Below are positions 45,675 through 63,825 of a stretch of DNA of 64,000 nt, piece after piece. Location of the stretch: the NCBI RefSeq assembly GCF_020271745.1, contig NZ_CP084296.1, positions 2,170,001 through 2,234,000 of the forward strand, read 5' to 3'. The DNA comes from Providencia alcalifaciens (lineage in GTDB: Bacteria > Pseudomonadota > Gammaproteobacteria > Enterobacterales > Enterobacteriaceae). The notes under the pieces are model-generated. The model was not told where the DNA came from. It did no database searches and worked only from the letters and a program-made list of their open reading frames with translations. The translations under genes and the position numbers were made by a program. How positions within the stretch are numbered: position 1 is the stretch's first letter; every line of letters begins with the position of its first letter.

Positions 45675-46292
45675 CTAAATGCTTGCTGCTTCAGCGATAA
45701 GCTTACCGAGGTCTTCCCATTGTTCGTTATCGATCAAATTAGTCGGAACCATCCAAGACCCACCACATACAATGACCGAAGATAATGAATTATATTGGTG
45801 GATATTTTCTGTATTAATTCCTCCTGTAGGCATAAAACGAACGGGATAAACAGCCCCTAAAGCTTTGAGCATAGATATACCTCCAGAAGCTTCTGCTGGA
45901 AAGAATTTTAATGTGGTCAGATTAAATTCAAGAGCTTGTTCAACTAAGCTTGGATTATTCACACCAGGGATGATTGGGATATTTTTTTGTTGGCAGTAGC
46001 TGACAATTTTAGGATTAAACCCTGGACTAACAATAAAATTGACACCGGCATCAATAGCAAGATCAACTTGTTGGGGGGTTAAAACAGTACCTGCGGCAAT
46101 CAGTAAATCTGGATAGGCAGCTCGCATATTTTTAATCGCATCAACGGCGGCATCAGTACGAAAGGTGACTTCGGCACAAGGTAAACCATTTTCCACTAAT
46201 GCTTTGGCAATTTGAGCGCCGTGTTTGGCATGATTGATAGTGATCACGGGCACGACGCTGAGTGCGGTTAATTTTTCAATGAGTTGGTTCAT
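45675..46292 (-). CDS. kdgA: 2-dehydro-3-deoxy-6-phosphogluconate (KDPG) aldolase
   Basis: This 205-aa class I aldolase of the Eda family has the catalytic Glu in AEVTFRT (E41), phosphate-binding Arg (R45) and Schiff-base lysine K129 in TTLKFFPAEASGG. It splits KDPG into pyruvate and glyceraldehyde-3-phosphate, the last uronate step. It lies 23 bases after kdgK on the same strand. It is likely dedicated to this island; a housekeeping eda may exist elsewhere. GalNAc-derived products would use kbaYZ instead. Confidence 0.9.
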   Translation of the reverse strand: MNQLIEKLTALSVVPVITINHAKHGAQIAKALVENGLPCAEVTFRTDAAVDAIKNMRAAYPDLLIAAGTVLTPQQVDLAIDAGVNFIVSPGFNPKIVSYCQQKNIPIIPGVNNPSLVEQALEFNLTTLKFFPAEASGGISMLKALGAVYPVRFMPTGGINTENIHQYNSLSSVIVCGGSWMVPTNLIDNEQWEDLGKLIAEAASI

Positions 46293-46315
46293 TGGGTATC
46301 CTTTTTATCTTTTGC

Positions 46316-47248
46316 TCAGTCAATTGTTGGCATTGCATCTAGTGGAATGATAGCGCCCCGGTGTTGGATAACGGTTCCAGCTAATAAATGCCCCATTTTT
46401 GCTGCCTCTTCTGGGGATGCGCCGAGAATTCGACGGGCTAAATATCCTGCACTAAATGAGTCTCCCGCCGCGGTTGTATCTATGATGTGGTCAATTTGAT
46501 TGGCAGCAATACTAATGCAGTAGTTATCAATGATGACGAAACAGTCATCTCCCCCGCGTTTAATCACAATTTCTGGTACCCCGTATTGTTGTGTACGAGC
46601 GATGGTGCCACTTTCATGTTCATCGCCGTATAACAGTTTTTCATCATCGAAGGTGAGAAATGCAATATCTGTGAGATTCAGTATCTGTTGATAAACTTGC
46701 TTGGCAGTCTCTGATGAAGACCAAAGTGTAGGGCGATAATTATTATCAAATACCACTTTAACCCCATGATTTTTGGCTTCTTTGAGTATGGAGAATAAGA
46801 GTTGGCGCGTCTCTTCGGGTAAAATGGCCAAGCTGATACCGCTTAGATAAATATAATTTTGCTGATTAAGCCGCTGCTGAGTTTGTTCTTGGGTTCGATC
46901 ATTGAGCCAAAACTTCGCCGCAGAATTATCTCTCCAATAGAAAAAATGTCGCTCACCATCAGAGGATGTTTCAATCAAATACATCCCTGGTAGAGACTCT
47001 TCAGAAATAAAAACATCATCGGTATTTATCCCCTCTTTTTTCCAACTTTCAATCATCTGCTGACTGAATGGATCTTTACCTAATCCCGTTATATATCGGG
47101 TTGTGACGTCGTGATCTTTTGTTAGGCGGGATAGGTATAATGCTGTGTTGAGGGTATCCCCTCCAAAAGTTTGTTTGTAAAGTTCATCTGATTTTTGTAG
47201 CTCAACCATGCACTCGCCAATAACGGCAACCTGTAGATGTGTATTCAT
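46316..47248 (-). CDS. kdgK: 2-dehydro-3-deoxygluconate (KDG) kinase
   Basis: The PfkB-family kinase is 310 aa from ATG 47248 (GCAGGTGA upstream); the E. coli KdgK is 309 aa. Motifs are AVIGECMVELQ, FGGDTLNTALYLSRL near residue 29, FDNNYRPTLW near 160 and the PfkB signature DTTAAGDSFSAGYLARR near 250. It phosphorylates KDG, the product of KduI/KduD. The sequence favours KdgK over tagatose-6-P kinase. Confidence 0.9.
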   Translation of the reverse strand: MNTHLQVAVIGECMVELQKSDELYKQTFGGDTLNTALYLSRLTKDHDVTTRYITGLGKDPFSQQMIESWKKEGINTDDVFISEESLPGMYLIETSSDGERHFFYWRDNSAAKFWLNDRTQEQTQQRLNQQNYIYLSGISLAILPEETRQLLFSILKEAKNHGVKVVFDNNYRPTLWSSSETAKQVYQQILNLTDIAFLTFDDEKLLYGDEHESGTIARTQQYGVPEIVIKRGGDDCFVIIDNYCISIAANQIDHIIDTTAAGDSFSAGYLARRILGASPEEAAKMGHLLAGTVIQHRGAIIPLDAMPTID

Positions 47249-47346
47249 TTTTATCACCTGCGTGATTACATTTTTTGTTAATTTAAGGCAGATCATTAGG
47301 TAATAAGCAAAGACAACATATTGTCTTCACTTATTTTTTTGCAGGC

Positions 47347-47925
47347 TTAAAGGTAGGTCAGTGGCCAGTGTTTAAAATAAATGTGCTTAGCTTGCCAATC
47401 CACCTTTTCATGATTATCACTGAGTAAATGGTGTGCAACGGTAAATGCGAATTCAAAACTGACGCCTAACCCTTTTGCACTAATAAATTTTCCATCGACC
47501 ACAACATCTTGATCAACATAGACCCCATCATCGAATTTATCTGCAAGTTTATCGCCAGTACTGTATTGGCGACCTTCGAGTAAATGATGTGCAGCAAGCA
47601 CTTTAGCGCCAGAAGAACACAGTGCGCAAATGTATTTATCTTCGTGAATATGTCGACGAATAAAGTCAATAACATCATTATTAGTGCAAAGCCTATCAGT
47701 GCCTTTTGGGCCACCAGGCATCATGATAGCGTCATAAGTGTGAGATAATTTTTCACTTAGCCGGAAATCGGCACTAATTTTTGTTCCAAAATAGGTGTTT
47801 AAAACTAAGCTATTCATACACGAAAGGACATCAACATGGATATCCAATCGACGCATAATATCGATAAAAACAACGGCTTCTCCCTCTTCAAAGCCATCCG
47901 CGAGTAAAACAGCAACTTGTTTCAT
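47347..47925 (-). CDS. DJ-1/PfpI family protein
   Basis: This 192-aa protein has the DJ-1 fold markers: the conserved Glu in LLADGFEEGEAV near residue 14, MMPGGPKGTD, and the nucleophile cysteine in YICALCSSGAKVLA near residue 102. It has a second Cys three residues before it. It resembles YajL/ThiJ-type proteins, which are described as chaperones, deglycases or glyoxalases. It lies between kbaY and kdgK in the island, a context that suggests protection from a reactive keto-uronate or dicarbonyl. No signal peptide is present. The function is not settled. Confidence 0.78.
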   Translation of the reverse strand: MKQVAVLLADGFEEGEAVVFIDIMRRLDIHVDVLSCMNSLVLNTYFGTKISADFRLSEKLSHTYDAIMMPGGPKGTDRLCTNNDVIDFIRRHIHEDKYICALCSSGAKVLAAHHLLEGRQYSTGDKLADKFDDGVYVDQDVVVDGKFISAKGLGVSFEFAFTVAHHLLSDNHEKVDWQAKHIYFKHWPLTYL

Positions 47926-47972
47926 GGTATTCCTTGCATCGTGAGATGTATGTAACTTGATTATTGATGGAG

Positions 47973-48836
<864 letters not shown>

Positions 48837-48840
48837 TTAT

Positions 48841-48855
48841 CTTTCATTTGATTTC
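48841..48855 (+). promoter_or_regulatory. Candidate AgaR operator before kbaY
   Basis: CTTTCATTTGATTTC differs by one base from the complement of 53806-53820 before agaR. It lies 14 bases upstream of the kbaY start. More CTTTC/GAAAG units follow (GAAAGAAATAGAAAG, CTTTCTTTTCGAAAG), as in known AgaR-controlled regions. Confidence 0.6.
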
Positions 48856-48940
48856 GATATATGATAATCGAAAGAAATAGAAAGTTAAAAGATCTAAATC
48901 ACATTTATTCCTTTCTTTTCGAAAGTCAATGAAAGTTAAG

Positions 48941-50416
48941 CTAAAAATAATGCGACATTTTAGAGCTATAACTGGTGATACCTTTACGTAACAGATTGTT
49001 TTTCGGTCTTCTTGATTGACCTATCAAGCTCTCAATGACTTTTTGTGTACAAGATTGCAGTTCTAATCGACGTGTTAGCGGGTTTTGCTGATGGGTATAT
49101 TCCTCACGAAATATCACTGTGACTTCTTGGGTTTCTTGGACACCAATCACTGAGGCTTTGATGGCTGGTATTTCGAAATGAAAGTCAAATTTTTCGATAG
49201 GCAGAGGATTGGCTAAAGCCTCCCAGAGATCGATTCGCTGACCACAATAGAACGCAATAATGACGGCTCTTAATGACCAAAAACTGCTAGCTGGGCCACT
49301 GTAATTATCGACTAACCGAGGGTCATCACTGAATAATCCTTGTGTTGGAGCTCCCGCTTGAAATGCCCCATGGTTAATGAAATAGCGTAGCGTATTTTCT
49401 AAGGCACTTTTTGCTTCTCCCACTGTGACGGATGAACAGCCTAAATCCACGCCAGCGATAAGCGGCGCGGAAACGGCCAGTCGGTAACATGCACTGCGTC
49501 CAAAAAAAGGAATACCAGTCGGCGTCATAAAATGCAGGTAATATTGATTAAATTGATTTAGTGATTGTTGAATAAAATCAGTATCAAAGTCAGGAGAAAT
49601 TTGGTTAAGCCAATAGAGTGAGTAGTAAAAGCCCCAAGCGTTATAGTAATCAAAATTACCTTTTGCACCATCTCGGAACCAGCCATCTCCGACATAAAAT
49701 GCTTTAATTCTATCGTAGCGCCATTTGGCAATATGGTCGATTCCAGTCAAGTCGCGAATAACAAATTGGACCAAGAGAGGGAACAAATGCCAATTATTAT
49801 CGACAATCTCACAATGATTAACTTGCTCAAACCATGAGATGATTTGTTGCTGCAATCCGGCCTCTAGTTTATCCCAAACCCACTCTTTACTGAGCCATAA
49901 TGTCAGTGCTAAATCGGCAGATTCACAAATTTTTTGGTCATAGTTTTCAAGTTTTCCCCAGTAGCCTTTGTGGGTTGGGTCGGTACCGTGAATAAAAGCT
50001 TGGCGGATCATATCGCTGATATGAATAGGCTGTAAATTTAAGCCATTCAGCCTTTCTTGACGGCTATGGATTAACCACGCCGCGAATAAAGGAAGTACTC
50101 GGCTTACTCCCTCTAATGCATCAGTACGGACGGTTTGCTGTCCAGGACGACCGGGATAATAGGCATGGGTATAGTCCCAAATTTGATAATGAGAAAAAGC
50201 TTCCGCAATGTAACGGACAAGAATTTCACAAAGAGATGAAAGTGATTGGTGGCTATCTTGAAAAACTTGCATAACAAACTCATCATGACGCCGATAAGCG
50301 GATTTACGAACGAATTTTCGGATGATGTTTTCTTTAAATAATTTCTTATAGAGATGAAAGTCTGGATGTTCGTAAGGCAGTTTTGGTCGTTCGGTTGGGA
50401 TAAGTGATGTGGTCAT
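48941..50416 (-). CDS. DUF2264 protein in a glycan-degradation operon
   Basis: The 491-aa protein belongs to DUF2264 as judged by NNWHLFPLLVQ near residue 205, FYVGDGWFRDGAKG near 240 and YYNAWGFYYSLYWLNQ near 259. The Trp- and Tyr-rich helical sequence suggests an alpha/alpha toroid like GH88/GH105 enzymes. There is no signal peptide, so it should be cytosolic. It follows the sulfatase by 52 bases. A role in uronyl hydrolysis or as a glycosidase is plausible; I recall that DUF2264 proteins may be a CAZy glycosidase family but cannot confirm it here. Confidence 0.8.
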   Translation of the reverse strand: MTTSLIPTERPKLPYEHPDFHLYKKLFKENIIRKFVRKSAYRRHDEFVMQVFQDSHQSLSSLCEILVRYIAEAFSHYQIWDYTHAYYPGRPGQQTVRTDALEGVSRVLPLFAAWLIHSRQERLNGLNLQPIHISDMIRQAFIHGTDPTHKGYWGKLENYDQKICESADLALTLWLSKEWVWDKLEAGLQQQIISWFEQVNHCEIVDNNWHLFPLLVQFVIRDLTGIDHIAKWRYDRIKAFYVGDGWFRDGAKGNFDYYNAWGFYYSLYWLNQISPDFDTDFIQQSLNQFNQYYLHFMTPTGIPFFGRSACYRLAVSAPLIAGVDLGCSSVTVGEAKSALENTLRYFINHGAFQAGAPTQGLFSDDPRLVDNYSGPASSFWSLRAVIIAFYCGQRIDLWEALANPLPIEKFDFHFEIPAIKASVIGVQETQEVTVIFREEYTHQQNPLTRRLELQSCTQKVIESLIGQSRRPKNNLLRKGITSYSSKMSHYF

Positions 50417-50468: not shown

Positions 50469-52076
50469 TTATTTTGCTGAATCTACAAGGATTTGATAAC
50501 GATCTTGTCCCCAAACTACAGGTTTAGGTTTATCTTTTACCCATCGGTAATAGGCAGATTTCAGTTGTTTAACTTTTTCAGGATATTTTGATGCTAAATC
50601 AACGGATTCAGATGGATCTTGTTTGTCATTGAATAATTTTGGTTGATTGGTGCCATCATCATAAAAATAGAGTACCCATTCGCCATCACGAACAGCCCAT
50701 GAGCCTTTGGATAATTTTTCTAGATTCGGGTTCTTCGGGGCATCTTTACGTTGGTAGGTGATCCACTCATGGTAACCGTGCCAAAAATCCTGATTTTCTT
50801 CGCTGTAATGTTTGGTTCCCGGTCCTGTCCAATACAGGTATTCATGTGGTGATTTTTGGTTTTTTCCTTGTAGTAGTGGCATGATATTTTTACCTTCTAC
50901 TTTCAGGCTATCAGGAATGGTGATGCCTGCACTTTGTAACGCGGTCGGTAGGATATCGATGGCAGAAATCATTGCATCACTCTGTTTACCTGCTGGAATA
51001 TGTCCCGGCCAGTAAGCTACAAATGGTACTCGAACTCCACCATTAAACATTTGTCCTTTAAAGCCTCTATCCATTGCATTCATTGGCATTGGAGATTCAT
51101 GAACAGCGCCATTATCCGAAATAAAGAAAATCAGGGTATTTTCGAGCTCACCATTTTCTTTCAAGGTGGTAATGATTTTGCCGATCCCTTCATCGGCTGC
51201 ATTTAACGCAGCAAAATACTTATCTGCCTCGACATTGCCGGTATTAAATTTATCCATATATTTCGCAGGGGAAGATTCTTCTAACGGAATATGAGGAACG
51301 CTGTAAGATAAATTAATAAAGAAAGGTTTGTCTTTATGGCTATCGATAAATTTAATGGTTTCATCGGTTAATAAATGGGTGATATAACCCGGAGCCGGGA
51401 CATTTTCACCATTACGCCAGATTGCTGGCGAGTTCCAAAGTGCTGCGCCAGATGCATAATAGCTATAGGCGTAATCGAATCCTCTTTCATGAGGTGCAAA
51501 TCCCGGTTCCGGCGTGGAAATCATATTATCGTGATAATCGCGGGTTTGTTTATCTTCGGCAATTTTGGGTTTTTTCAGGACTTTGGCATTATGCCATTTA
51601 CCTATGCTGGCTGTGGCATAGCCATCCTCTTGGAATAAAGCCGGCAGTAGTTTGATCTCTTCCGGGATCCCCAGCATCGCATCATCATTACTATAAGTGC
51701 CAAAGCTGGCAGGAGAACGCCCAGTGAAAATACCTGCTCGTGATGGACCGCATACAGGGTGAGCTACAAATGCATTGGTCATTTTGATGCCACCAGCCGC
51801 CATCTCTGAGACATTGGGCATCGCAATTCTTGCGGCTTCTATCATTTTATTAATATCGCCCTCATAACGCTGTGGTACAGGGCGTTTTGATAATTCGTTT
51901 ACATCAAGGCTATCGAGCACAAAATCAAGCTGTCCAGTACCTAAGTCATCCATCACAATGAGTAAAACATTTGGCTTTTCAGGTGTTCCACCTGCATTAG
52001 CCGTAATGGGAGGAACGAGACAACTGGTGGCTATCAGCCCAGCAAGTAGGCTTTTTTTTACAGAAGGTAAATTCAC
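50469..52076 (-). CDS. Periplasmic sulfatase (Cys-type, formylglycine)
   Basis: This 535-aa protein has a signal peptide (basic SVKKS, hydrophobic core, AxA cleavage near residue 28) and a family S1 sulfatase domain. The maturation motif CGPSRAGIFTGR is at C109; this Cys must be converted to formylglycine, and the maturase gene lies directly upstream. Metal ligands are VMDDLG (42-44) and FISDNGAVHE near residue 325; IGKWHNA supplies the Lys and His of the GKWH motif. It probably removes sulfate from a GAG oligosaccharide in the periplasm; the exact position (4-, 6- or 2-O) is not predictable. Confidence 0.9.
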   Translation of the reverse strand: MNLPSVKKSLLAGLIATSCLVPPITANAGGTPEKPNVLLIVMDDLGTGQLDFVLDSLDVNELSKRPVPQRYEGDINKMIEAARIAMPNVSEMAAGGIKMTNAFVAHPVCGPSRAGIFTGRSPASFGTYSNDDAMLGIPEEIKLLPALFQEDGYATASIGKWHNAKVLKKPKIAEDKQTRDYHDNMISTPEPGFAPHERGFDYAYSYYASGAALWNSPAIWRNGENVPAPGYITHLLTDETIKFIDSHKDKPFFINLSYSVPHIPLEESSPAKYMDKFNTGNVEADKYFAALNAADEGIGKIITTLKENGELENTLIFFISDNGAVHESPMPMNAMDRGFKGQMFNGGVRVPFVAYWPGHIPAGKQSDAMISAIDILPTALQSAGITIPDSLKVEGKNIMPLLQGKNQKSPHEYLYWTGPGTKHYSEENQDFWHGYHEWITYQRKDAPKNPNLEKLSKGSWAVRDGEWVLYFYDDGTNQPKLFNDKQDPSESVDLASKYPEKVKQLKSAYYRWVKDKPKPVVWGQDRYQILVDSAK

Positions 52077-52100: not shown

Positions 52101-53345
52101 TTATTGCTTGTAGGCACGTTGCATTGCTGGGAGCGCATCACTCGCGATTGCTCCTTGAGAGATGGCTTGTTGCATGAGCCGCATACCTAAAGCTGTATGA
52201 TTAAAAATCTTTTTATAAGAGCGGCAGAGATAGTTGTGGCGATACTTTTCGCCTTCAATAGAAATAATACGGTGCTTTGGACAGCCTCCATAACATAAGC
52301 TTTGTACTTCACATTTCTTACAAAGGTCAGTGAGTTTGTCGTATTTGTTTTGTCCAAAGCGTAACTGCTGTTTTGAGGTGACAATTTTTTCAAGGGTATT
52401 CTGATGGATATTACCGAGACGATTAGCAGGGTAAACATAGTGGTCACATGAGTAAACATCGCCATTAGATTCAATAATTAACGCCTGACCACAGGTTTTT
52501 GATTGAATACACGTTGAGGCAGGGTAGCCCATCCATGTACCTAATAAGCTATCAAAGAGACGAACGTAGATTTTTCCTATATCACCTTGGCGAATCCACT
52601 CATCAAATACATCCGCCATAAATTGCCCATATCCGTCAGCGGGCACAGAAAATGGTGCCATGGCCGCATTCGGTCCTGGAGCGTAGTGCCCACCTTGGGT
52701 ATGAGGGAAACGTCTATCAACTTCAACAATAGGAATAAATTGGAAAAAAGTAGAGCCTAGTGCTTTTAGGGCCTGATAAGTCTCTTTGCCTTTGCGCCAG
52801 TTTTGGTCATTAACAACTGTCAGCGTATTAAACTCGACGCCATACTCAATGAGGAGTTGGATGGATTTTTTGACGCGTTCAAAAGTTGGATTACCGTTGA
52901 CGGATATACGGTATTTATCGTGAACAGCCTCAAGCCCATCAATAGAAACGCCGAGTAAAAAATGGTTGTCAGCAAAGAATTTAGCCCACTGCCGATTGAT
53001 GGCAATTGCGTTAGTTTGTACGCTGTTGGTGATAGCTTTTCCTTGAGCATATTGTTTTTGATATTCCACGACACGTTCAAAAAAAGGCAAACCCGCAAGT
53101 GTAGGCTCACCACCTTGCCATGAAAAATCCACTTGGTCACCAGAGTGTGACTGAATATAGTCTTTAATATAGCGACGTAATACGTTATCGGGCATCACAT
53201 CGTGCTGACCATCTGGAGTCTCTTCATTGAAAACATTTTCTTTTTCAAGGTAAAAACAATACTCACATTTGATATTGCAGTGATAACTAGTAGGTTTAGC
53301 CATCATATGAAAATAAGCAGGTTGTTTTGAGGACATTGATTTCAT
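52101..53345 (-). CDS. Anaerobic sulfatase-maturating enzyme (radical SAM)
   Basis: The 414-aa protein is an anSME of the AslB/YdeM type. The radical SAM cluster C23-x3-C27-x2-C30 (HCNIKCEYC) is followed by the QGGEPTL motif and a SPASM region with many Cys (CGQALIIESNGDVYSCDHYVYP, split; CKKCEVQSLCYGGCPKHR). It oxidises the active-site Cys or Ser of sulfatases to formylglycine without oxygen, in the cytoplasm. The start is uncertain (53345 or 53336); GGATGA favours the second. It is 24 bases upstream of the sulfatase and likely co-transcribed. Confidence 0.91.
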   Translation of the reverse strand: MKSMSSKQPAYFHMMAKPTSYHCNIKCEYCFYLEKENVFNEETPDGQHDVMPDNVLRRYIKDYIQSHSGDQVDFSWQGGEPTLAGLPFFERVVEYQKQYAQGKAITNSVQTNAIAINRQWAKFFADNHFLLGVSIDGLEAVHDKYRISVNGNPTFERVKKSIQLLIEYGVEFNTLTVVNDQNWRKGKETYQALKALGSTFFQFIPIVEVDRRFPHTQGGHYAPGPNAAMAPFSVPADGYGQFMADVFDEWIRQGDIGKIYVRLFDSLLGTWMGYPASTCIQSKTCGQALIIESNGDVYSCDHYVYPANRLGNIHQNTLEKIVTSKQQLRFGQNKYDKLTDLCKKCEVQSLCYGGCPKHRIISIEGEKYRHNYLCRSYKKIFNHTALGMRLMQQAISQGAIASDALPAMQRAYKQ

Positions 53346-53805
53346 CCGAAAGAGTCAGGTTATTTTTATAGCATTACGCAAATTACGAAAAATCAAAAGA
53401 GATTGAAATCACATATTTTAAAATTGAAAGCATTTGAAATTTATTGGTGTGGAATTTAACGAATGAGAAAGGTGGTTGGATACAATCAACGAAGCGGCGT
53501 CGTGCGGGCTTACGTCAATATTTTTCGAAGTAAAAATCGAAATTAGCACTTTTTACTAAATTTATATAGATTTAGTTCCTAATATTTCATAAATCTTGGC
53601 TTAGTGGCAATATGATTGATAATTGCTTAGTTAAAATACAGTATTTGGCGCTTTATTTATTGGTTACTTTTGTATTCGAAGCTATCATATTGGAAATGTG
53701 AAAATATCCGTAAGCTTACAACTTATAAATCGAAACTTTGTGAAAGAGATCAAAAGTTTTGTTTTTTTACGTTGTTGGTATTTTTTGGCGTAGTAAACTT
53801 AATTT
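53346..53805. other. Divergent promoter region of the catabolic island
   Basis: About 500 bp of AT-rich sequence separates the anSME (minus) and agaR (plus) blocks. Visible are GAAATCA and GAAAG units near 53404-53424 and a CRP-like site at 53739. There is no coding frame with a ribosome site. This must hold both operon promoters. Confidence 0.6.
53739..53754. promoter_or_regulatory. Candidate CRP site upstream of agaR
   Basis: TGTGAAAGAGATCAAA matches TGTGA-N6-TCACA with 9 of 10 conserved bases. It is about 63 bases before a possible start of transcription near 53810, a class I distance. Catabolite control of a sugar island is expected, but the site is inferred. Confidence 0.4.
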
Positions 53806-53836
53806 GAAATCAAACGAAAGCTTTTTGTTTGATTTC
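53806..53836. promoter_or_regulatory. Palindromic operator upstream of agaR
   Basis: GAAATCAAAC and GTTTGATTTC are perfect complements separated by 11 bases. The left part GAAATCAAACGAAAG is the complement of the site before kbaY with one change. It lies 15 bases upstream of the agaR start and suits autoregulation by the DeoR-family repressor. Confidence 0.65.
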
Positions 53837-53850
53837 GTAAGGAGATGAAA

Positions 53851-54629: not shown

Positions 54630-54675
54630 CACTAACTCCATTAGCAACATGACCATGTTGATTGTGGAGTTAGTG
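54630..54675 (+). promoter_or_regulatory. Hairpin covering the kbaZ ribosome site
   Basis: CACTAACTCCA (54630-54640) pairs perfectly with TGGAGTTAGTG (54665-54675); inside, CAACATG pairs with CATGTTG. The GGAG ribosome site of kbaZ (54666-54669) lies in the 3' arm. It starts two bases after the agaR stop, so it may couple or limit kbaZ translation. Confidence 0.6.
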
Positions 54676-54678
54676 TTA

Positions 54679-55970: not shown

Positions 55971-57155
55971 ATGGAATATTTAAGTTATCAAACGGCTGAA
56001 CTGGAACAATTGAATGCGTTCTGGACAGCGAAAGAGATTGAGCAACAGCCTGATTGCTGGGAAAAAGTGAGTGCAACAGTAAAAGCTCGTCGAGCTGAAA
56101 TTGATGCATTCTTAGCGAATGTTTTAGCGGCACCAGATGCTCGAATTATTATGACGGGAGCTGGGACATCAGCGTTTGCAGGACGAGCACTAGCACCTAT
56201 CTTAACTGGGCATTTGAAACGACGAGTCGATGCGATTGCAACAACTGATTTAGTTTCTGACCCTAAAGAGTATTTAGCTGAAGATGTTCCGACGTTGCTG
56301 ATTTCGTTTGCACGTTCTGGTAATAGTCCTGAGAGCGTGGCAGCACTGGATATAGCTGAAACATGTTTATCTAAAATCTATCATTTGGTTTTAACCTGTA
56401 ACCGCGATGGTCAGCTGTATCGCTATTGCCAAAATAATATTAACGCGTTGGCATTATTAATGCCGGAAGAGTCGAATGACCGCTCTTTGGCAATGACCTC
56501 AAGTTTTTCATCAATGATGATGGCGGCATTATCTATTTTTCTGCCAGAAAATTTTTATAACAATGAAGTTAAGCCATTTTTCCAAGATTATCATCATACC
56601 TACCAGCAATTTAATCTCACAATTCGTGACGATTATGCAGGGAAATTCAAACGCGTTATTTATCTAGGTAGCGGTGGATTACAGGGGTTAGCACAAGAGG
56701 CGGCACTGAAAATGTTGGAGTTAACCGCAGGTAAAGTCGTGGCTAACTTTGATACACCGTTAGGCTTTCGCCATGGGCCGAAATCGATAGTTAATAAAGA
56801 AACACTGGTCGTGTTATTCCTTTCGAATGATAAATACATAAGGCAATACGAAAGTGATTTATTACGAGAGGTAATTCACGATAATGCATCCGCGATGGTG
56901 ATCGCGGTCACTGCATCTCCATCTAATTCTTTTTCCAAAGAAAATTTTATTTATATTCCAAAAATGGCGCAATGCTCTGACGCAGCATTACTTTTTCCAT
57001 ATCTGATGTTGGCACAGGCATTTGCGTTTCATAGTTCGATTGCACTGGGGAATACACCGGACAACCCATCTCCAACAGGGGAAATTAACCGTGTTGTTCA
57101 AGGAGTTACTATTTACCCGTTCTCATATCAAAAAGATAGTGTCACGGCGTCTTAA
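55971..57155 (+). CDS. agaS: Galactosamine-6-phosphate deaminase/isomerase AgaS
   Basis: The 394-aa protein has two SIS domains: MTGAGTSAFAGRALAPIL with SFARSGNSPESVAA in the first, and YLGSGGLQGLAQEAALKML with TPLGFRHGPKS in the second. It is AgaS (384 aa in E. coli), which converts galactosamine-6-P to tagatose-6-P and ammonia. It starts 9 bases after kbaZ. In E. coli agaS follows the PTS and agaA instead, so gene order is rearranged here. Confidence 0.92.
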   Translation: MEYLSYQTAELEQLNAFWTAKEIEQQPDCWEKVSATVKARRAEIDAFLANVLAAPDARIIMTGAGTSAFAGRALAPILTGHLKRRVDAIATTDLVSDPKEYLAEDVPTLLISFARSGNSPESVAALDIAETCLSKIYHLVLTCNRDGQLYRYCQNNINALALLMPEESNDRSLAMTSSFSSMMMAALSIFLPENFYNNEVKPFFQDYHHTYQQFNLTIRDDYAGKFKRVIYLGSGGLQGLAQEAALKMLELTAGKVVANFDTPLGFRHGPKSIVNKETLVVLFLSNDKYIRQYESDLLREVIHDNASAMVIAVTASPSNSFSKENFIYIPKMAQCSDAALLFPYLMLAQAFAFHSSIALGNTPDNPSPTGEINRVVQGVTIYPFSYQKDSVTAS

Positions 57156-57188: not shown

Positions 57189-57683
57189 ATGCACACACCT
57201 AATATTGTTTGGACCCGAATCGATGAGCGTTTGTTGCATGGGCAAATTCGCATTACTTGGGGTAAACACACTGAAGCAAACCTAATTCTTGTTGCAAACG
57301 ATGACGCGGCTGAAGGTCCCAATGCCGCATTCATGCAAGCAGGAATGAAAGCGTCTGCGGGGGGAGAATATGCTGTTCGATTTTTCTCTATCCAGAAGAC
57401 AATTGATGTCATTAGCAAGGCATCACCACGTCAAAAAATCTTCATTCTTTGTAATAACCCAACCGATGTCGCCCGTCTGGTGGAAGGCGGAGTTCCTATC
57501 ACTCATTGTAATGTTGGCAACATGCATTTTCATGAAGGAAAGCGCCAAATCACCAAAACAGTGTCAGTGGATGAGCGTGACTTAGATGCATTTCGTCGCC
57601 TAGTCGATAAAGGCGTGACTTGCACCATTCAAAATACTCCAGACCAAACACCGGTGAATGTTTTAGCTCTAGCATCCGCATAA
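57189..57683 (+). CDS. agaV: PTS mannose-family IIB component, AgaV-like
   Basis: The 164-aa cytosolic protein has the phosphorylated histidine H17 in RIDERLLHGQI and the VGNMHFHEGKRQITKTVSVD segment typical of AgaV. It passes phosphate from IIA to the incoming sugar. The family (IIB of mannose/sorbose/GalNAc type) also carries the unsaturated GAG disaccharides in streptococci. Substrate is inferred from the locus. Confidence 0.93.
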   Translation: MHTPNIVWTRIDERLLHGQIRITWGKHTEANLILVANDDAAEGPNAAFMQAGMKASAGGEYAVRFFSIQKTIDVISKASPRQKIFILCNNPTDVARLVEGGVPITHCNVGNMHFHEGKRQITKTVSVDERDLDAFRRLVDKGVTCTIQNTPDQTPVNVLALASA

Positions 57684-57732: not shown

Positions 57733-58503
57733 ATGATCTTTGAAGCTTCGTTAGTGGCTTTATGGGCCTTCTTTTGCGGTATTGATAAGTATGACGTTGC
57801 ATTAAATATTCACCGCCCTTTGATTACAGGCCCTGTTGTCGGGCTAATTATGGGGGATATGCAAATCGGGTTAATCGCAGGTGCAACACTTGAACTGGCT
57901 TGGCTGGGATTAGTCCCGAATGCGGGAGCTCAGCCACCAGATGTAACGTTGGGTACGATCGCGGCTGTTGCTTTTGCCGTAATGACTAAACAGCCTCCAG
58001 AAGTCGCTATGGGGATAGGGATGCCAATCGCAGTACTGATGCAGATGCTGATCATTGGTTTCTTCGCGATGACCGCATTTACCATGGGTAAAGCCGACCG
58101 CTACGCAGAAAACGCAGATGCAGGGGGGATTTCAAGGCTCTTAGTTATTACGATAACCATACGTTCCCTGCTTTATGCCATCGTGGCTTTCGTTACTGTC
58201 TATTTTGGTGAGCATGCCGCAGAGTGGATCGATCAAAACACACCAAAAGTACTGCTCGAAGGTTTAGGTATCGGCGCGAAAATGGTACCTGCGATAGGTT
58301 TCGCAATGCTCTTGAAAATTATGTGGTCGAAAGAAGTGGCTGGTGTGTTCTTCGTAGGCTTTGTGATGACAACCTACTTAAAACTGCCAATCATGGCCGT
58401 GGCTATCCTTGGGGCATCAGCCGCAGCGCTTTACTACTTTTTCAGTGGAAATGGTAACAAAAACAATTCACAGCCAAGCGAGGATTTTGAAGATGGTATC
58501 TGA
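57733..58503 (+). CDS. agaW: PTS mannose-family IIC component, AgaW-like
   Basis: The 256-aa integral membrane protein has several hydrophobic segments and the signature DKYDVALNIHRPLITGPVVG and GATLELAWLGLVPNAGA-type region of the IIC-Man superfamily. It forms the membrane channel with IID. It is in the order IIB-IIC-IID-IIA, as agaVWEF in E. coli. Its end overlaps the IID start. Confidence 0.93.
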   Translation: MIFEASLVALWAFFCGIDKYDVALNIHRPLITGPVVGLIMGDMQIGLIAGATLELAWLGLVPNAGAQPPDVTLGTIAAVAFAVMTKQPPEVAMGIGMPIAVLMQMLIIGFFAMTAFTMGKADRYAENADAGGISRLLVITITIRSLLYAIVAFVTVYFGEHAAEWIDQNTPKVLLEGLGIGAKMVPAIGFAMLLKIMWSKEVAGVFFVGFVMTTYLKLPIMAVAILGASAAALYYFFSGNGNKNNSQPSEDFEDGI

Positions 58504-59380
58504 TAATAAAGCAGTGACAGAAACGAAAGACTTACCAACTCAATCTTACGTTGATGGTATCGATGAATATCAAGATACAACAGTACGCAAAGTCATTACG
58601 AAAAAGGATTTATGGCGTTGTGCATTCCGTGGATTATTCATGGAGGGGAACTTTAACTTTGAGCGTATGCAAGGTGGTGGGTTTGCTTTCTCTATCATTC
58701 CAGCACTGAAAAAAATTCACGGCAATAATAAACGTGACTATGCAACAGCATTGAAAAACCATCTGCAATTTTTTAATGCGAGTCCCAAGTTATTTACTTT
58801 CTTACTCGGCACCGCGGTTGCTATGGAAGAGAATAAAGAGAAACCTTCAACTGTGAACGTCATGAAAGTGGCGGGTATGGGGCCTACTGGTGGTATCGGT
58901 GATGCCATTGACCACATGACTTTAATGCCATTAACCCTTGCATTAGGGGCATCGATTGCAATGGAAGGCTCCATTGCCGGACCATTTGTTTTCTTCTTCC
59001 TTTACCAAATTGTTCATTTTTTTGTCTATTTTGGATTGATGTTCATGGGGTATCGCGCAGGTACAGCGGCGATGGTCAACATGAGTGACGCTACTGAAAA
59101 ACTGGCAAAAGCGGCCAACATAATGGGTATTTTTGTTATTGGGGCACTCTCAGCTACCTTCATTAAGATACAAACCACGGCCTCCTTAGAACTTGGCGGA
59201 AAGGTGGTGGAATTACAAACCGCGCTATTCGATAAAATCATGCCTAACTTACTACCACTAGGTTTAGTGTTTCTCATGTTCAAAATGGTGAAAGGTACCG
59301 GTTTTTGGGCTAAACCTCCGGTTCTGATTTTCTCCACCTTAGCCTTCGGCGTGATTGGTCATGTACTGGGTGTACTGTAA
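58493..59380 (+). CDS. agaE: PTS mannose-family IID component, AgaE-like
   Basis: The product is 295 aa from ATG 58493 (E. coli AgaE 292), with GAGGA eight bases upstream and an 11-base overlap with agaW. Motifs are FMEGNFNFERMQGGGFAFS near residue 47 and MGPTGGIGDAIDHMTLMPL near 126. It is the membrane partner of IIC. The longer frame from 58409 lies within agaW and is rejected. Confidence 0.93.
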   Translation: MVSDNKAVTETKDLPTQSYVDGIDEYQDTTVRKVITKKDLWRCAFRGLFMEGNFNFERMQGGGFAFSIIPALKKIHGNNKRDYATALKNHLQFFNASPKLFTFLLGTAVAMEENKEKPSTVNVMKVAGMGPTGGIGDAIDHMTLMPLTLALGASIAMEGSIAGPFVFFFLYQIVHFFVYFGLMFMGYRAGTAAMVNMSDATEKLAKAANIMGIFVIGALSATFIKIQTTASLELGGKVVELQTALFDKIMPNLLPLGLVFLMFKMVKGTGFWAKPPVLIFSTLAFGVIGHVLGVL

Positions 59381-59403: not shown

Positions 59404-59425
59404 AGCGGGTAGTTTCTTACCCGCT
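59404..59425 (+). other. agaE-agaF intercistronic hairpin
   Basis: Stem AGCGGGTA / TACCCGCT (8 bp, perfect) with a 6-base loop, placed directly before the AGGAG of agaF. It may tune IIA expression. Confidence 0.55.
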
Positions 59426-59437
59426 TAGGAGTTAAGA

Positions 59438-59869
59438 ATGATTGGTTTGATTGTGTCTGGACACTTAAATTTCGCAAGTGGAATGGCATCAGCGGTAAAA
59501 GCTATTGCAGGGGAACAAGAGAATATGGTGTTTCTCGACTTTATCGAATCGATATCCCCCGATGAATTGGAACAACAAATGCGCTCTACGATTCAAGCCA
59601 TGCCTTGTGAGCAAATTGTATTTCTAACTGATCTGCCCGGCGGAACGCCTTGTAACCGTGCGATGGTCATCATGATGGAAAATCCCTTGGTTGAAGTTCT
59701 TTCTGGTGTCAGCCTTCCTATGATTGTGAACGCGGCATTTGAACGAGAAGGCGTCACAGCAAAAGAGCTGATAGCCATTTTGCAAGAGATAGGGATAAGC
59801 AGTATCCAAGATGTACGCGAGCAATTGTCGGCAGTATCTGAATCTGAAGATGAAGAAGACGGACTATGA
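59438..59869 (+). CDS. agaF: PTS mannose-family IIA component, AgaF-like
   Basis: The 143-aa cytosolic protein has phospho-histidine H9 in LIVSGHLNFASGM and the LTDLPGGTPCN motif near residue 66. It receives phosphate from HPr. The acidic tail (ESEDEEDGL) is unusual but short. Its stop overlaps the agaA start (ATGA). Confidence 0.92.
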   Translation: MIGLIVSGHLNFASGMASAVKAIAGEQENMVFLDFIESISPDELEQQMRSTIQAMPCEQIVFLTDLPGGTPCNRAMVIMMENPLVEVLSGVSLPMIVNAAFEREGVTAKELIAILQEIGISSIQDVREQLSAVSESEDEEDGL

Positions 59870-61038
59870 ATCGACAATACGCAATTTTAGCTGACCGAAT
59901 TTTTACACCTGACGGAATATTGCAGCAGAAATATGTACGAGTCAGTCATGGACGAGTCCAACAGATAACGGATATCGCCCCTGAAAATTGCTCAATTGTG
60001 CATTTAAAAGGGCGTTCATTGCTCCCAGGATTTGTCGACATTCATATTCATGGTCGAGCAGGCTCTGATGTGATGGATGCAAGCTTAGATGGATTGCAAA
60101 TTATTGCGGATGATTTGGTCAAGACGGGGGTTGCGGCATGGGTAGGAACCACGGTTACGGCACCCATGGACGATATTAAACACGCGTTAATCCAAGTTCG
60201 TCAATTTATGGCTCATCAGCAAACATCAGGTGCACAACTGTTAGGAAGCTTTCTTGAAGGCCCTTATTTCACTGAACGTCATCGAGGTTCTCATCCAGTG
60301 AAATACCTCAAGGCTCCGACCGTCTGCGAACTTAAATCTTTGCAAGAGTGTGCTGGTGGTTCGTTATTACGGGTCGCGGTGGCACCTGAAGCTGATGGCG
60401 CTATTGATGCTATTGATTGGCTAGTTCAACAAAATATCAAAACCAGTGTTGCCCATACCGCAGCGGATTTTGCCCAAACCAGCGAGGCATTTTCTCACGG
60501 TGCTGATTGTGGCGTGCATCTTTATAACGGTATGACGGGATTACATCACCGTGAACCGGGTTGCTGTGGAGCAGTGCTCTATCACGATGTACTAGCCGAA
60601 TTGATAGCGGATGGCATTCATGTTCATCCGGTCATGATGAACTTGGCATATCGCATGAAAGGTTATCAGCAAGTTGCCTTAATTACTGATTGTATGCGTG
60701 CTGGGGGATTACCGGACGGCGAGTATGCCTTGGGCGCTCAAATGGTTCAGGTGACTCAAGGGCAAGCGAGAACCGCAGACGGTTCTTTAGCCGGTAGCAC
60801 CTGTAGCTTGGATGCGGCATTGCGCAATATGGTGAAACTCGCTCAAGTTCCTGAATGGGAAGCGGTACAAATGGCGACGGCGGTGCCTGCGGAGTATCTC
60901 GGCATTGGTCAGCAATATGGCTATATCCGCGAGGGAGCCGTTGCAAGTTTTGCGGTTGTCGATGACAACTTTTATTTAACTGACACATTCATCAGAGGTG
61001 AACACGTTCACTCTGTTAATGGGAAAGCCAACTCATGA
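59866..61038 (+). CDS. agaA: N-acetylgalactosamine-6-phosphate deacetylase
   Basis: The 390-aa protein is a NagA/AgaA amidohydrolase: metal ligands H60 and H62 in VDIHIHGRAG, SFLEGPYF near residue 128, SVAHTAAD near 196, HLYNGMTGLHHREPG near 219 and the catalytic Asp in LITDCMRAGG near 276. In this context it should deacetylate GalNAc-6-P to galactosamine-6-P for AgaS. AgaA is preferred over NagA from synteny with agaVWEF and agaS. Confidence 0.9.
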   Translation: MNRQYAILADRIFTPDGILQQKYVRVSHGRVQQITDIAPENCSIVHLKGRSLLPGFVDIHIHGRAGSDVMDASLDGLQIIADDLVKTGVAAWVGTTVTAPMDDIKHALIQVRQFMAHQQTSGAQLLGSFLEGPYFTERHRGSHPVKYLKAPTVCELKSLQECAGGSLLRVAVAPEADGAIDAIDWLVQQNIKTSVAHTAADFAQTSEAFSHGADCGVHLYNGMTGLHHREPGCCGAVLYHDVLAELIADGIHVHPVMMNLAYRMKGYQQVALITDCMRAGGLPDGEYALGAQMVQVTQGQARTADGSLAGSTCSLDAALRNMVKLAQVPEWEAVQMATAVPAEYLGIGQQYGYIREGAVASFAVVDDNFYLTDTFIRGEHVHSVNGKANS

Positions 61039-61074
61039 GTTTGGTACTCCCCTGTAAATTATGAGGTATTTATA

Positions 61075-61905
61075 ATGGAAATTCGTCAACCAATTCACAG
61101 TGAGCACGCTAAAACACTGGATACTGCTGGATTACGTAAACAATTCTTAATTGAAGGATTGTTTTGCGAAGGGGAAATGAATCTCACTTATAGTCACATT
61201 GACCGCATCATCGTAGGCGGTATTGTTCCAACACATAAGCCATTGGCATTGATGGCGGGAAAAGCGTTAGGTGTTGATTTCTTTCTAGAGCGTCGTGAAT
61301 TGGGCGCTATCAATATTGGTGGTGCTGGTAAAGTGGTTGTTGATGGGGAAATATTTGAAATTGCTCCTCGTGAAGCAATTTACATTGGAATGGGGACACA
61401 TGAAGTAGAATTTAGTAGTGTAGATGCCAATAATCCAGCTCGTTTTTATATGAACTGCGCCCCGGCTCATCATACCTACCCTAGCCGTAAAATTACCATT
61501 GACCAAGCATCTCCAGAGAAGCTGGGTAATGTTGAAAACTGTAACGTCCGCACAATCTATAAATTCTTACATCCATCAATCTTACCAACATGTCAGCTAT
61601 CTATGGGGATGACGGTGTTAGAGCCAGGTAGCCTGTGGAATACCATGCCATGTCACACCCATGAGCGCCGCATGGAAGTTTATCTGTATTTTGATATGAA
61701 AGATGACAACGTAGTTTTCCATTATATGGGTGAACCAACTGAAACTCGTCATATTGTGGTACGTAATGAGCAAGCGGTGATTAGCCCGAGTTGGTCAATT
61801 CATTCAGGTGTCGGTACTGCGGCTTATACATTTATCTGGGGAATGGTGGGTGAAAATCAGGTATTCCACGACATGGATCATGTCGCAATGACAGATTTGA
61901 AATAA
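61075..61905 (+). CDS. kduI: 5-dehydro-4-deoxy-D-glucuronate isomerase
   Basis: The 276-aa cupin (E. coli KduI 278) has zinc-site residues in [17 protein letters not shown] near residue 195 and [17 protein letters not shown] near 240. It converts the 5-keto-4-deoxyuronate released from unsaturated uronate to DKII. It is the first uronate step here. A 78-bp gap with a GT-rich hairpin precedes kduD. Confidence 0.94.
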
Positions 61906-61983
61906 CGCCCAATTAATCCTTTTTATTTTCTTACCTAATAAAGCGGTGTTGCTGAATTGGCGGCACCGTAAGAGAGGCATGCC

Positions 61984-62739
61984 ATGAATTTATTTGATTT
62001 AACAGGAAAAGTAGCCATTGTCACTGGATGTAATACAGGTCTAGGCCAAGGTATGGCGATTGGATTAGCCCAAGCTGGGGCCGATATTGTTGGTGTTGGA
62101 ATACAAGATGCACCAGAAACACGTGCCGAAGTCGAAAAGTTGGGGCGTAAATTCCACTATGTCATCATGAATTTAATGGAGCAAGATAAGTTGCAAGATC
62201 TCGTGGACGATGCAGTATCTGCCATGGGGCATGTTGATATTCTGGTAAATAATGCGGGAATCATTCGTCGTGAAGACTTATTAGAATTTAGTGAAAAAGA
62301 TTGGGATGATGTCATTAACATTAACCAAAAAACACTCTTTTTCTTATCCCAGCGTGTTGCTCGTCAGTTTGTGAAGCAAGGTAATGGCGGAAAAATTATC
62401 AATATTGCTTCAATGTTGTCATTCCAAGGTGGCATCCGAGTGCCTTCTTATACTGCTAGTAAATCTGCGGTTATGGGATTAACTCGCGCATTAGCGACGG
62501 AGCTTTCTCAATATAATATTAATGTGAATGCTCTCGCACCGGGTTATATGGCCACAGATAATACCGCAGCACTAAGAGCCGATGCTGAGCGTAATGCAGC
62601 GATTTTAGAGCGAATTCCTGCGGGGCGTTGGGGACTGCCATCTGACTTAGCGGGACCTGCAATTTTCCTTGCTTCCAGTGCCAGCGATTATATCAATGGA
62701 TATACGATTGCCGTTGATGGTGGTTGGCTCGCTCGCTAG
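61984..62739 (+). CDS. kduD: 2-dehydro-3-deoxy-D-gluconate 5-dehydrogenase
   Basis: The 251-aa short-chain dehydrogenase has the cofactor motif TGCNTGLGQGMA near residue 15, NNAGI near 88, and the YTASK catalytic Tyr-Lys near 157. KduD reduces DKII to KDG with NADH. It follows kduI and precedes the GH105 gene by 18 bases. Confidence 0.94.
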   Translation: MNLFDLTGKVAIVTGCNTGLGQGMAIGLAQAGADIVGVGIQDAPETRAEVEKLGRKFHYVIMNLMEQDKLQDLVDDAVSAMGHVDILVNNAGIIRREDLLEFSEKDWDDVININQKTLFFLSQRVARQFVKQGNGGKIINIASMLSFQGGIRVPSYTASKSAVMGLTRALATELSQYNINVNALAPGYMATDNTAALRADAERNAAILERIPAGRWGLPSDLAGPAIFLASSASDYINGYTIAVDGGWLAR

Positions 62740-62757
62740 TCCCTCAGGAGGATCCAA

Positions 62758-63825
62758 ATGGAACAGGTATTATCATCTCAGTCATTACAGCGTGATGCTG
62801 TTTTGCAGGATATGAAACGTGTTTATCGTTTTCAATCAAAGCATCAGGTTCGTAGTGTGGTTCGTCGCAGTGGTAAAACTCGTTTTATCAAAGATACAGA
62901 TTGGGAACGCGGTGTTCTGTGGTCGTGTGTTGCTGCCGCTTGGCAAGCAACTCAAGACTGTGAGTATCTTGACGGGGTATTAGAATATACGTTACATACC
63001 GGATTTCGTACGGGACCAAATCCCCGTTTTGCAGATGATCATGTGTGTACACAAGCCTATTTAGCTGTCAGTTCACAGTTTTCTCAACCAGAAGTTCTTG
63101 AACCGACAATAAAAGCATTTGATTTGATGTTGGATGAACCGAAATTAGGTCGAGAAGACTGGTGGTGGTGTGATGCTCTTTTTATGGCACCACCGGCTTT
63201 CGCCGCATTGTCAGCAAAAACGGCTAATCCCCGCTATCTCGCTTACATGCATCAGGCTTATTGGGATGCAGTGGCGCATTTACGAGATCCCGAAACTGGC
63301 TTGATTTACCGGGATTATCGTTATATTCCTGATGGAAAGGGGAGTGAATTACGTGAAGCCAATGGGGAAAAAGTTTTTTGGAGCCGAGGCATTGGCTGGG
63401 TGATAGCCTCAGTGCCGCGTATCTTGCAGCATTTACCAGCTGATTTTGCAGGAAGACAACAATATTTAGATTTATTTGTTGAGCTAATCGAGTCTGTTGT
63501 GGAATATCAACAAGAAGATGGTTTCTGGCGGACAAGCCTGTTGGATCCTCAAAACTTCCCAGCACCTGAAAGTAGCGCAACCTCGCTATTTTGTTATGGA
63601 TTAGCTTGGGGGATAAACCAAGGTATATTAGATAAAACACGTTATCTGCCAATACTTGAAAAAGCATGGGGAGCACTTAATACCTGTATTCATGAAGATG
63701 GTATGTTGGGTTGGGTTCAATTGCCTGCATTTAATCCTAGGGATGTTAAATTTGAACATAATATGGATTATGGTGCTGGGGCTTATTTATTAGCGGGTAG
63801 TGAAGTAATTAAGTTATTAGATTAG
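62758..63825 (+). CDS. Unsaturated uronyl hydrolase, GH105 type
   Basis: The 355-aa protein has the GH105/YteR pattern: RFADDHVCTQAY near residue 90 (acidic pair D93-D94), DWWWCDALFMAPP with D139, SRGIGWVIASVPRIL and SSATSLFCYGLAWGIN near 275. It lacks a signal peptide and is cytosolic. It hydrates and cleaves the unsaturated uronic acid from lyase-derived oligosaccharides. In GAG loci of other bacteria this step is done by GH88; the GH105 type is notable. AGGAGG ribosome site precedes the ATG. Substrate is inferred. Confidence 0.88.
   Translation: MEQVLSSQSLQRDAVLQDMKRVYRFQSKHQVRSVVRRSGKTRFIKDTDWERGVLWSCVAAAWQATQDCEYLDGVLEYTLHTGFRTGPNPRFADDHVCTQAYLAVSSQFSQPEVLEPTIKAFDLMLDEPKLGREDWWWCDALFMAPPAFAALSAKTANPRYLAYMHQAYWDAVAHLRDPETGLIYRDYRYIPDGKGSELREANGEKVFWSRGIGWVIASVPRILQHLPADFAGRQQYLDLFVELIESVVEYQQEDGFWRTSLLDPQNFPAPESSATSLFCYGLAWGINQGILDKTRYLPILEKAWGALNTCIHEDGMLGWVQLPAFNPRDVKFEHNMDYGAGAYLLAGSEVIKLLD

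Follow-up and report, generated by a model that had tools for sequence, protein, structure and literature searches.

In a 64,000-nucleotide stretch of the Providencia alcalifaciens chromosome (the window; positions 2170001-2234000 of one 4,196,542-base contig, NZ_CP084296.1), the genes at 45675-63825 form an island that likely serves the scavenging of chondroitin sulfate and dermatan sulfate (CS/DS) fragments, without a recognised polysaccharide lyase of its own. Gene content, homologies, active-site residues, gene order and the absence of PL8 lyases were directly established. The island probably feeds on pieces made by others, and its DUF2264 protein, left unexplained by an earlier sequence-only reading of this DNA, is, as far as homology tells, the key to the use of saturated fragments.

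Gene content and proposed route

The sequence-only reading had described a complete catabolic island for glycosaminoglycan (GAG) oligosaccharides, built on a phosphotransferase system (PTS). Its two divergent blocks of 18 genes were borne out by the listing of open reading frames (18 intact frames, of which seven are minus-strand and 11 plus-strand; other frames at 45675-63825 that overlap these in antisense or are short were excluded from the count), as were the PTS gene order agaV-agaW-agaE-agaF and, by Pfam and NCBIfam, the families of the 17 genes that it had named; the unnamed one encodes a DJ-1/PfpI family protein at 47347-47925. The divergent region, from the end of the maturase gene (53345) to the start of agaR (53845), spans 499 bases. 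Past the window end the island extends to a KdgM porin gene, which lies 160 bases from the GH105 gene, and then to a second sulfatase gene.

45675-46292, minus: eda/kdgA, KDPG/KHG aldolase (PF01081, 1.5e-69; NF004325, 276.3 bits, cut-off 241)
46316-47296, minus: kdgK, 2-dehydro-3-deoxygluconokinase (NF052444, 472.4 bits, cut-off 400)
47347-47925, minus: DJ-1/PfpI family protein (PF01965; NCBIfam 112.4, below the cut-off of 131.25)
47973-48833, minus: kbaY/gatY-type tagatose-1,6-bisphosphate aldolase (TIGR01858, 512.8 bits, cut-off 443.55)
48941-50416, minus: DUF2264 protein, proposed cytoplasmic beta-D-glucuronate dehydratase of the BcGDH/GH154 kind (PF10022, 9.6e-78)
50469-52076, minus: exported S1 sulfatase, proposed exo-GalNAc-6-O-sulfatase (GalNAc, N-acetylgalactosamine; PF00884; 535 aa, CGPSR with Cys109)
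52101-53345, minus: anaerobic sulfatase maturase, radical SAM/SPASM (TIGR03942, 509.4 bits, cut-off 349.45)
53845-54627, plus: agaR, DeoR-family repressor (NF040755, 421.5 bits, cut-off 260)
54649-55962, plus: kbaZ, tagatose-bisphosphate aldolase non-catalytic subunit (NF012002, 772.9 bits, cut-off 707)
55971-57155, plus: agaS, galactosamine-6-phosphate deaminase/isomerase (TIGR02815, 528.5 bits, 0.7 short of the cut-off of 529.2)
57189-57683, plus: PTS IIB, AgaV (NF008508, 181.8 bits, cut-off 180)
57733-58503, plus: PTS IIC, AgaW (NF040757, 335.2 bits, cut-off 300)
58493-59380, plus: PTS IID, AgaE-like, divergent (PF03613; NF040760, 247.7 bits, below the cut-off of 500)
59438-59869, plus: PTS IIA, AgaF (NF040761, 147.4 bits, cut-off 130)
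59866-61038, plus: agaA/nagA-type amino-sugar-6-phosphate deacetylase (TIGR00221 for nagA, 310.3 bits, cut-off 225.65)
61075-61905, plus: kduI, 5-dehydro-4-deoxyglucuronate isomerase (NF002091, 453.3 bits, cut-off 250)
61984-62739, plus: kduD, 2-dehydro-3-deoxygluconate 5-dehydrogenase (TIGR01832, 429.9 bits, cut-off 338.85)
62758-63825, plus: GH105 (GH88-clan) unsaturated glucuronyl hydrolase, no leader by eye (PF07470; 4ce7, 235.9 bits)
63986-64705, minus: KdgM-type acidic-oligosaccharide porin, of which only the last 15 bases (63986-64000) lie in the window (PF06178, 118.3 bits)
64822-66381, minus, outside the window: second sulfatase (773.7 bits to PDB 6j66)

A Pfam cut-off was passed by 18 of the 18 island proteins. 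The specific NCBIfam models were missed by IID, AgaS, the KbaY-type aldolase (410.1 against a cut-off of 542 for the KbaY-specific NF009375, the GatY model being passed) and the DJ-1 protein; the in-window sulfatase and GH105 passed no NCBIfam cut-off, and the DUF2264 protein had zero NCBIfam matches.

In the proposed route, the KdgM porin would admit small acidic fragments to the periplasm, where the second sulfatase would take off the 4-O-sulfate and the in-window sulfatase the 6-O-sulfate, both enzymes being activated by the maturase. The AgaVWEF-type PTS would then import the desulfated disaccharide and phosphorylate C6 of its GalNAc, which must be free of sulfate. An unsaturated (lyase-made) disaccharide could be cleaved directly by the cytoplasmic GH105 enzyme; in the saturated disaccharide of glucuronate and GalNAc (GlcA-GalNAc), the GlcA would be dehydrated by the DUF2264 enzyme before GH105 cleavage. 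Because the DUF2264 enzyme would thereby supply the substrate of GH105, host-made (saturated) and lyase-made (unsaturated) fragments would both be usable. The uronate would pass to KduI, KduD, KdgK and Eda, and GalNAc-6-phosphate to AgaA, AgaS, a kinase from elsewhere (the island holds no tagatose-6-phosphate kinase gene) and KbaYZ, with AgaR as the putative repressor of at least part of the island.

Lyases in Providencia and Proteus

That the island is complete, as the sequence-only reading had it, did not hold. PL8 (PF02278) was found in 0 of 24 Providencia genomes, whereas the same profile search found it twice per genome in 10 of 10 Proteus genomes; a first run of PF02278 had matched 0 of 14 control genomes, and the Proteus genomes were then used as positive control. 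Hepar_II_III_C and Chondroitinas_B likewise had zero matches in the P. alcalifaciens genome, so that no GAG lyase elsewhere in it was recovered by the three profiles searched; other lyase families were not searched for.

The gene order at the corresponding place differs between the two genera. In Proteus, a 4-O-sulfatase gene is followed by those of an OmpG-type porin, an autotransporter and the lyases in 10 of 10 genomes, a KdgM porin was not found at that place in these 10, and the GH105 gene comes after the second lyase, facing it and directly adjoining (three stretches: L066, L076 and L077). The lyases are on the island contig, at most about 10 kb from the island locus, in eight of the 10 genomes, and on a different contig in G004 and G012. 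Outgroup genome G245 holds 4-O-sulfatase, OmpG-type porin, autotransporter, lyase I and lyase II on one contig, which is not its island contig. In Providencia (our own stretch L025, plus L078 and L079), only the KdgM porin stands between 4-O-sulfatase and GH105; searched for remnants, these three stretches gave no lyase match at E up to 1; there were two weak matches, both to an autotransporter query (best E 0.69).

It might be argued that the genome encodes an unrecognised chain-cutting enzyme of another family and that the organism is a self-sufficient chondroitin degrader. The own-genome profiles leave room for this, as PL29, PL30 and PL37 were not among them, yet we consider it unlikely: the other close carriers of the island have PL8 (14 of 14, namely the 10 Proteus genomes plus G058, G150, G193 and G245), and the interval from 4-O-sulfatase to GH105 holds nothing but the porin in the three Providencia stretches.

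In a phylogeny built from five proteins of the island (18 rows, with G193, G058 and G245 chosen as the root and G150 left out), the Providencia carriers form one group (0.997) beside Proteus, and PL8 is present in all three outgroups. The simplest account would be that the Providencia lineage lost the lyase block; the lyases may also have joined later in Proteus, from a lyase-less ancestor. It is possible, and here we are tentative, that island-bearing Providencia are specialised scavengers derived from a Proteus-like ancestor, having lost the lyases, the OmpG-type porin and the autotransporter, having kept or gained a narrow KdgM porin, the two sulfatases, the PTS and the dehydratase, and living on fragments produced by Proteus, by other lyase producers or by the host. 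Scavenging predicts cross-feeding, in which Providencia would consume chondroitin fragments beyond its own making; the genomic contrast is clean (PL8 in 10 of 10 Proteus, 0 of 24 Providencia).

As for the autotransporter, 10 of the 10 Proteus genomes (L076, 528-2693; L113-L122) and G245 (L087, 11881-13980) encode such a protein, about 700 residues long, immediately ahead of lyase I; none was found in the Providencia island. The protein might present or export a component that chain cutting requires.

Proposed dehydratase, phosphotransferase system and sulfatases

The DUF2264 protein, in which no leader is visible by eye, is most likely a cytoplasmic beta-D-glucuronate dehydratase, to judge from its solved relatives: 8oi4 (the best), BcGDH 9o4u (1.7e-12) and 9nwf (1.2e-11). 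Chains of these three entries also took Foldseek ranks 1-9 for a structural model of the protein, whose mean pLDDT (predicted local distance difference test) is only 66.3. BcGDH was reported to dehydrate the terminal GlcA of chondrosine, which lets a GH88 enzyme remove it; the dehydratase activity was also reported for the GH154 founder BT_3677, and a reclassification of GH154 was proposed (PMC12269599). Alanine mutants of BcGDH at ten residues (E74, R78, N176, N177, W178, F181, Y229, R285, Y289 and Y354) were described as being without activity (PMC12269599). In the DUF2264 protein, 10 of the 10 are kept, as E102, R106, N207, N208, W209, F212, Y258, R307, Y311 and Y372, respectively (the pairing was read by hand from the PDB-match alignment and the letters were then checked in the sequence), and all are invariant in 12 of 12 aligned rows. 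One of these rows, a DUF2264 protein of Vibrio hannami (L016; 33% identical), thus keeps all ten; no other island homologue was found in its neighbourhood by tblastn.

Were the DUF2264 protein a true glycoside hydrolase, either a beta-glucuronidase or a beta-galactosidase as GH154 was first described, it could split saturated GlcA-GalNAc by itself, and 8oi4, the closest solved match, was deposited as a beta-galactosidase. To this we give little credence. The hydrolase activity of BcGDH was traced to an inconsistency of preparation, and chondrosine dehydration was found instead (Alvarez 2025, PMC12269599); according to the same report, BcGDH has no acid/base pair placed for hydrolysis (PMC12269599). 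Moreover, the residues that were mutated in BcGDH are all conserved, and a GH105 gene lies alongside DUF2264 in every island stretch spanning that place. Feeding of GH105 by a dehydratase, of a different kind, is also described in ulvan degradation (PMC8511951).

As a dehydratase, the DUF2264 protein would have a testable role, acting in the cytoplasm with GH105 behind a PTS, outside Bacteroides. If true, it would be the first case of a PTS pathway that dehydrates a saturated disaccharide in phosphorylated form (GlcA-GalNAc-6-phosphate) ahead of its cleavage. Both the lyase-less scavenger form and the pairing of PTS and dehydratase appear to be new: among the literature matches listed, with preprints outside the scope, there was none on a Providencia chondroitin locus or on such a pairing in enterobacteria, nor one with growth data for Providencia on chondroitin, and PMC8762050, in which P. 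mirabilis was tested, leaves Providencia unmentioned. The PTS plan itself is not new, as a PTS is already mentioned for the P. vulgaris lyase operon (PMC9067506).

The cytoplasmic partner was assigned by its closest solved relatives, 4ce7 (6.7e-69), 5noa (9.4e-53), 4q88 and then YteR, because PF07470 cannot tell GH88 from GH105; 4ce7 and 5noa are characterised GH105 enzymes acting on unsaturated glucuronyl residues. Import of the disaccharide through the PTS, as the sequence-only reading had supposed, is supported by inference from the gene set. Streptococcus agalactiae was described as importing an unsaturated GAG disaccharide by a PTS that phosphorylates it at C6, and it was argued that 6-O-sulfated disaccharides are therefore unsuitable substrates (PMC6837340). 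A periplasmic 6-O-sulfatase ahead of the PTS is coherent with this, because the PTS phosphorylates C6; GalNAc C6 would be the site left for phosphorylation, because C6 of the uronate is a carboxylate. As for specificity, IID scored at half the AgaE cut-off, unlike IIB, IIC and IIA, and disaccharide specificity may reside in it.

Free GalNAc and free glucuronate might instead be imported separately, by an ordinary GalNAc (aga) operon with a neighbouring uronate set. PTS IIB, IIC and IIA belong to the GalNAc-specific type; in addition, ptsH was found to be required for growth of P. mirabilis on GalNAc, which its authors extend to the poor growth of the ptsH mutant on chondroitin sulfate C (PMC13289894). 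We nevertheless regard separate import as quite improbable. GH105 and the DUF2264 protein carry no visible leader, so the uronate bond should be cut inside the cell, and the genes of GH105, DUF2264, maturase and PTS stay linked in every stretch with the core: our own, two further Providencia, Proteus (three stretches for GH105, 10 for the other three), G193, G058 and G245. Because the GH105-dehydratase pair is cytoplasmic, disaccharide import is the better reading of the P. mirabilis ptsH phenotype as well, though not proven, and would give a fuller account of it than free GalNAc.

CS/DS as the source, the suggestion of the sequence-only reading, is supported on three sides: (i) by the adjacent 4-O-sulfatase, (ii) by the 6-O-type sulfatase in the window and (iii) by the lyases of chondroitinase ABC type that accompany the island in Proteus. 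The first of these is the strongest single pointer to the substrate, by homology: over residues 1-505, the second sulfatase reaches 773.7 bits to 6j66, a CS/DS 4-O-endosulfatase, against 432.7 bits to the next solved structure. It has the C-X-P-X-R motif (CSPFR at 92) and a leader that is twin-arginine-like by eye (Pfam TAT_signal, 22.1, just under the cut-off of 22.7). Its homologue was found in 21 of 21 island carriers searched, versus 0 of 5 non-carrier Providencia.

The in-window sulfatase is more ambiguous in its PDB matches, the best being carrageenan sulfatases, with human GALNS lower down. It was compared with PB_3285, an exo-GalNAc-6-O-sulfatase reported to be encoded by a 1,608-bp gene as a 28-residue signal peptide plus 507 residues, with Cys109, Pro111 and Arg113 (PMC8819143). 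The in-window gene is also of 1,608 bp and encodes 535 residues, the sum of the PB_3285 precursor (28+507), with CGPSR at 109 and an apparent 28-residue leader, the end of which was judged by eye. Homologues of 57-71% identity occur in six other genomes of the order. By the peptides that printed primers imply, and not by the full PB_3285 sequence, the PB_3285 peptide YVATPVCGPSRAGML is one residue off the sequence of four homologues, which share 62-64% identity with the window sulfatase; PVCGPSRAGM occurs in 4 of 12 homologues. Of the eight Sulfatase-domain matches found in the genome, two share one frame, and two belong to the island.

A plant or algal polymer as source is scarcely credible: GH105 is nearest an ulvan enzyme, the in-window sulfatase nearest carrageenan sulfatases and the porin of KdgM type, but the amino-sugar genes would be useless for such a polymer, the adjacent sulfatase fits the CS/DS enzyme far best, and the same island is accompanied by chondroitinase ABC-type lyases in Proteus. 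Pectin, ulvan and carrageenan were thus dismissed in view of the aga genes and of the CS/DS 4-O-sulfatase beside the window, and heparin/heparan in view of the missing Hepar_II_III_C in the genome and of a catabolism for GalNAc, not glucosamine.

Several points weigh against CS/DS scavenging by the route proposed. Every catalytic, transport and regulatory step in Providencia is inferred. The similarity of the DUF2264 protein to BcGDH is remote (47-50 bits), its AlphaFold model is poor, and its residues 405-491 fall outside the Pfam match; the BcGDH authors also caution that chondrosine is a poor substrate and that weakly active mutants were possibly missed (PMC12269599). IID misses the AgaE cut-off. 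The ptsH phenotype fits free GalNAc import too, which is its authors' own reading, and a P. mirabilis triple mutant including agaV was reported to have no fitness defect in mouse urinary infection (PMC13289894). The 6-O activity is proposed from the gene length, the position of the catalytic cysteine and a single short peptide; of 12 homologues, 0 contain the exact PB_3285 peptides of the N and C termini, and 7 have Ser for the Cys. Finally, no 6-O-type sulfatase was found in the G193 stretch and no agaS or agaA in the G058 stretch.

Distribution, chromosomal setting and regulation

The sequence-only reading had called such a PTS-based system uncommon in a Gram-negative enteric, which is correct only in part: all 10 Proteus genomes examined carry the island, variants of it occur in at least three other genera of the family, and a 2022 review mentions putative PTS genes for the lyase operon of P. 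vulgaris (PMC9067506). Within Providencia, DUF2264 was found in 7 of 24 genomes, in one of them in pieces (G269, L073-L075), where the 4-O-sulfatase is kept. The DUF2264 protein shares 91% identity with its counterpart in Providencia rustigianii, of which strain DSM 4541 carries the island, and 74-76% with that in P. rettgeri. Between agaA and the DJ-1 gene the island is kept in all 13 loci of the two genera; these loci end inside agaA, and kduI, kduD and GH105 of Proteus were seen only in the three stretches read; 11 further loci have DUF2264 alone in common, at 27-33% identity. Among 246 genomes of the family, PL8 was found in nine, DUF2264 (at least 58% identity) in six and both in five, the exception with DUF2264 but not PL8 being our own genome (Fisher p about 1e-7, not a true probability because the genomes are related); the other 59 DUF2264-matching genomes, at 27-34% identity, were set apart. 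Three other genera of the family (G193, G058 and G245; L083-L087) have related islands plus PL8, which lies on a contig separate from the island in G058 and G245.

The genes of the island differ in how closely they match those of Proteus: PTS IIB, IIC and IID are 90-93% and IIA 72-75% identical to the window, versus 41-45% for kdgK and 49-52% for eda. The latter two lie before the DJ-1 gene in Proteus and after it in Providencia, and were not found in two P. rettgeri loci; they were probably recruited separately. All 13 Providencia and Proteus loci carry the DJ-1/PfpI gene with the island, as do L083 and L086; in the L084 stretch it was not found.

On the chromosome, the island begins directly after carB. 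Three close Providencia genomes (G103, G216 and G267; carB 100%) lack the island but have both carB and the VTT-metC-exbB block: homology with them stops at 45635 and restarts at 66835-66841, and about 2.3 kb stand there instead. In the L079 stretch (76%-identical DUF2264), VTT, metC and exbB were not found within 2.7 kb past the 4-O-sulfatase, for which reason its island seems to sit elsewhere.

The locus in P. vulgaris and P. mirabilis shares the order agaA-PTS-agaS-kbaZ-agaR-maturase-6-O-type sulfatase-DUF2264-kbaY (10 of 10 loci), kduI, kduD and GH105 (three stretches) and the 4-O-sulfatase (10 of 10); after the latter it has an OmpG-type porin, an autotransporter and two PL8 lyases, Providencia one KdgM porin. 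The P. vulgaris operon was reviewed as holding two lyases, a putative sulfatase, a delta-GH and putative PTS genes (PMC9067506). Streptococcal hyaluronan clusters (S. agalactiae and S. pneumoniae) are alike in a mannose-family-type EIIA-D PTS for an unsaturated GAG disaccharide, a cytoplasmic unsaturated glucuronyl hydrolase, an isomerase-reductase pair, KdgK and KdgA (PMC6837340, PMC12838403, PMC9067506), and differ in their PL8 hyaluronidase, GH88 and DhuI/DhuD (PMC12838403, PMC9067506), where Providencia has GH105, KduI/KduD, catabolism of GalNAc and not N-acetylglucosamine, sulfatases and the candidate dehydratase. In Bacteroides caccae PUL25, a glucuronate dehydratase (BcGDH) feeds an unsaturated uronyl hydrolase on chondroitin, as is proposed for Providencia; that locus is described with PL35, GH88 and GH109 and without a chondroitin sulfate-specific sulfatase gene (PMC12269599), in contrast to the PTS, GH105 and two sulfatases of Providencia, which has no recognised lyase.

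At the level of profiles, the AgaR, KbaZ, AgaV, AgaW and AgaF models were passed and AgaS fell 0.7 bits short, while the E. coli-type AgaE (IID) and KbaY-specific models were not reached. Compared with what we take to be the layout of the E. coli aga/kba locus, Providencia adds the uronate branch, sulfatases, maturase, dehydratase and GH105.

Four AgaR-like boxes lie in the island:

48841-48856, plus: AgaR-like box CTTTCATTTGATTTCG, 5′ of kbaY, an exact match to CTTTCRTTTGATTTCG
48920-48935, minus: second AgaR-like box, weaker (three mismatches; weak alone)
53805-53820, minus: AgaR-like box, arm 1 of an inverted pair, 5′ of agaR (one mismatch)
53822-53837, plus: AgaR-like box, arm 2 of the inverted pair (two mismatches)

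The box CTTTCRTTTGATTTCG was derived from agaR promoters and chosen after viewing them, the site at 48841 being only partly independent. The consensus that we assume for E. coli AgaR gave many matches at four to five mismatches in the scan and was not used. AgaR control of the Proteus lyases was not shown by the motif, which was absent at up to three mismatches from three Proteus lyase I promoters (one match at four mismatches); induction of the P. vulgaris lyase by GalNAc, as cited in a review (PMC9067506), is compatible with AgaR-type control. At up to three mismatches, the window has seven boxes against 2.64 expected, four of them in the island; seven were reached in 2 of 100 shuffles, and L025 has one match against 0.61 expected.

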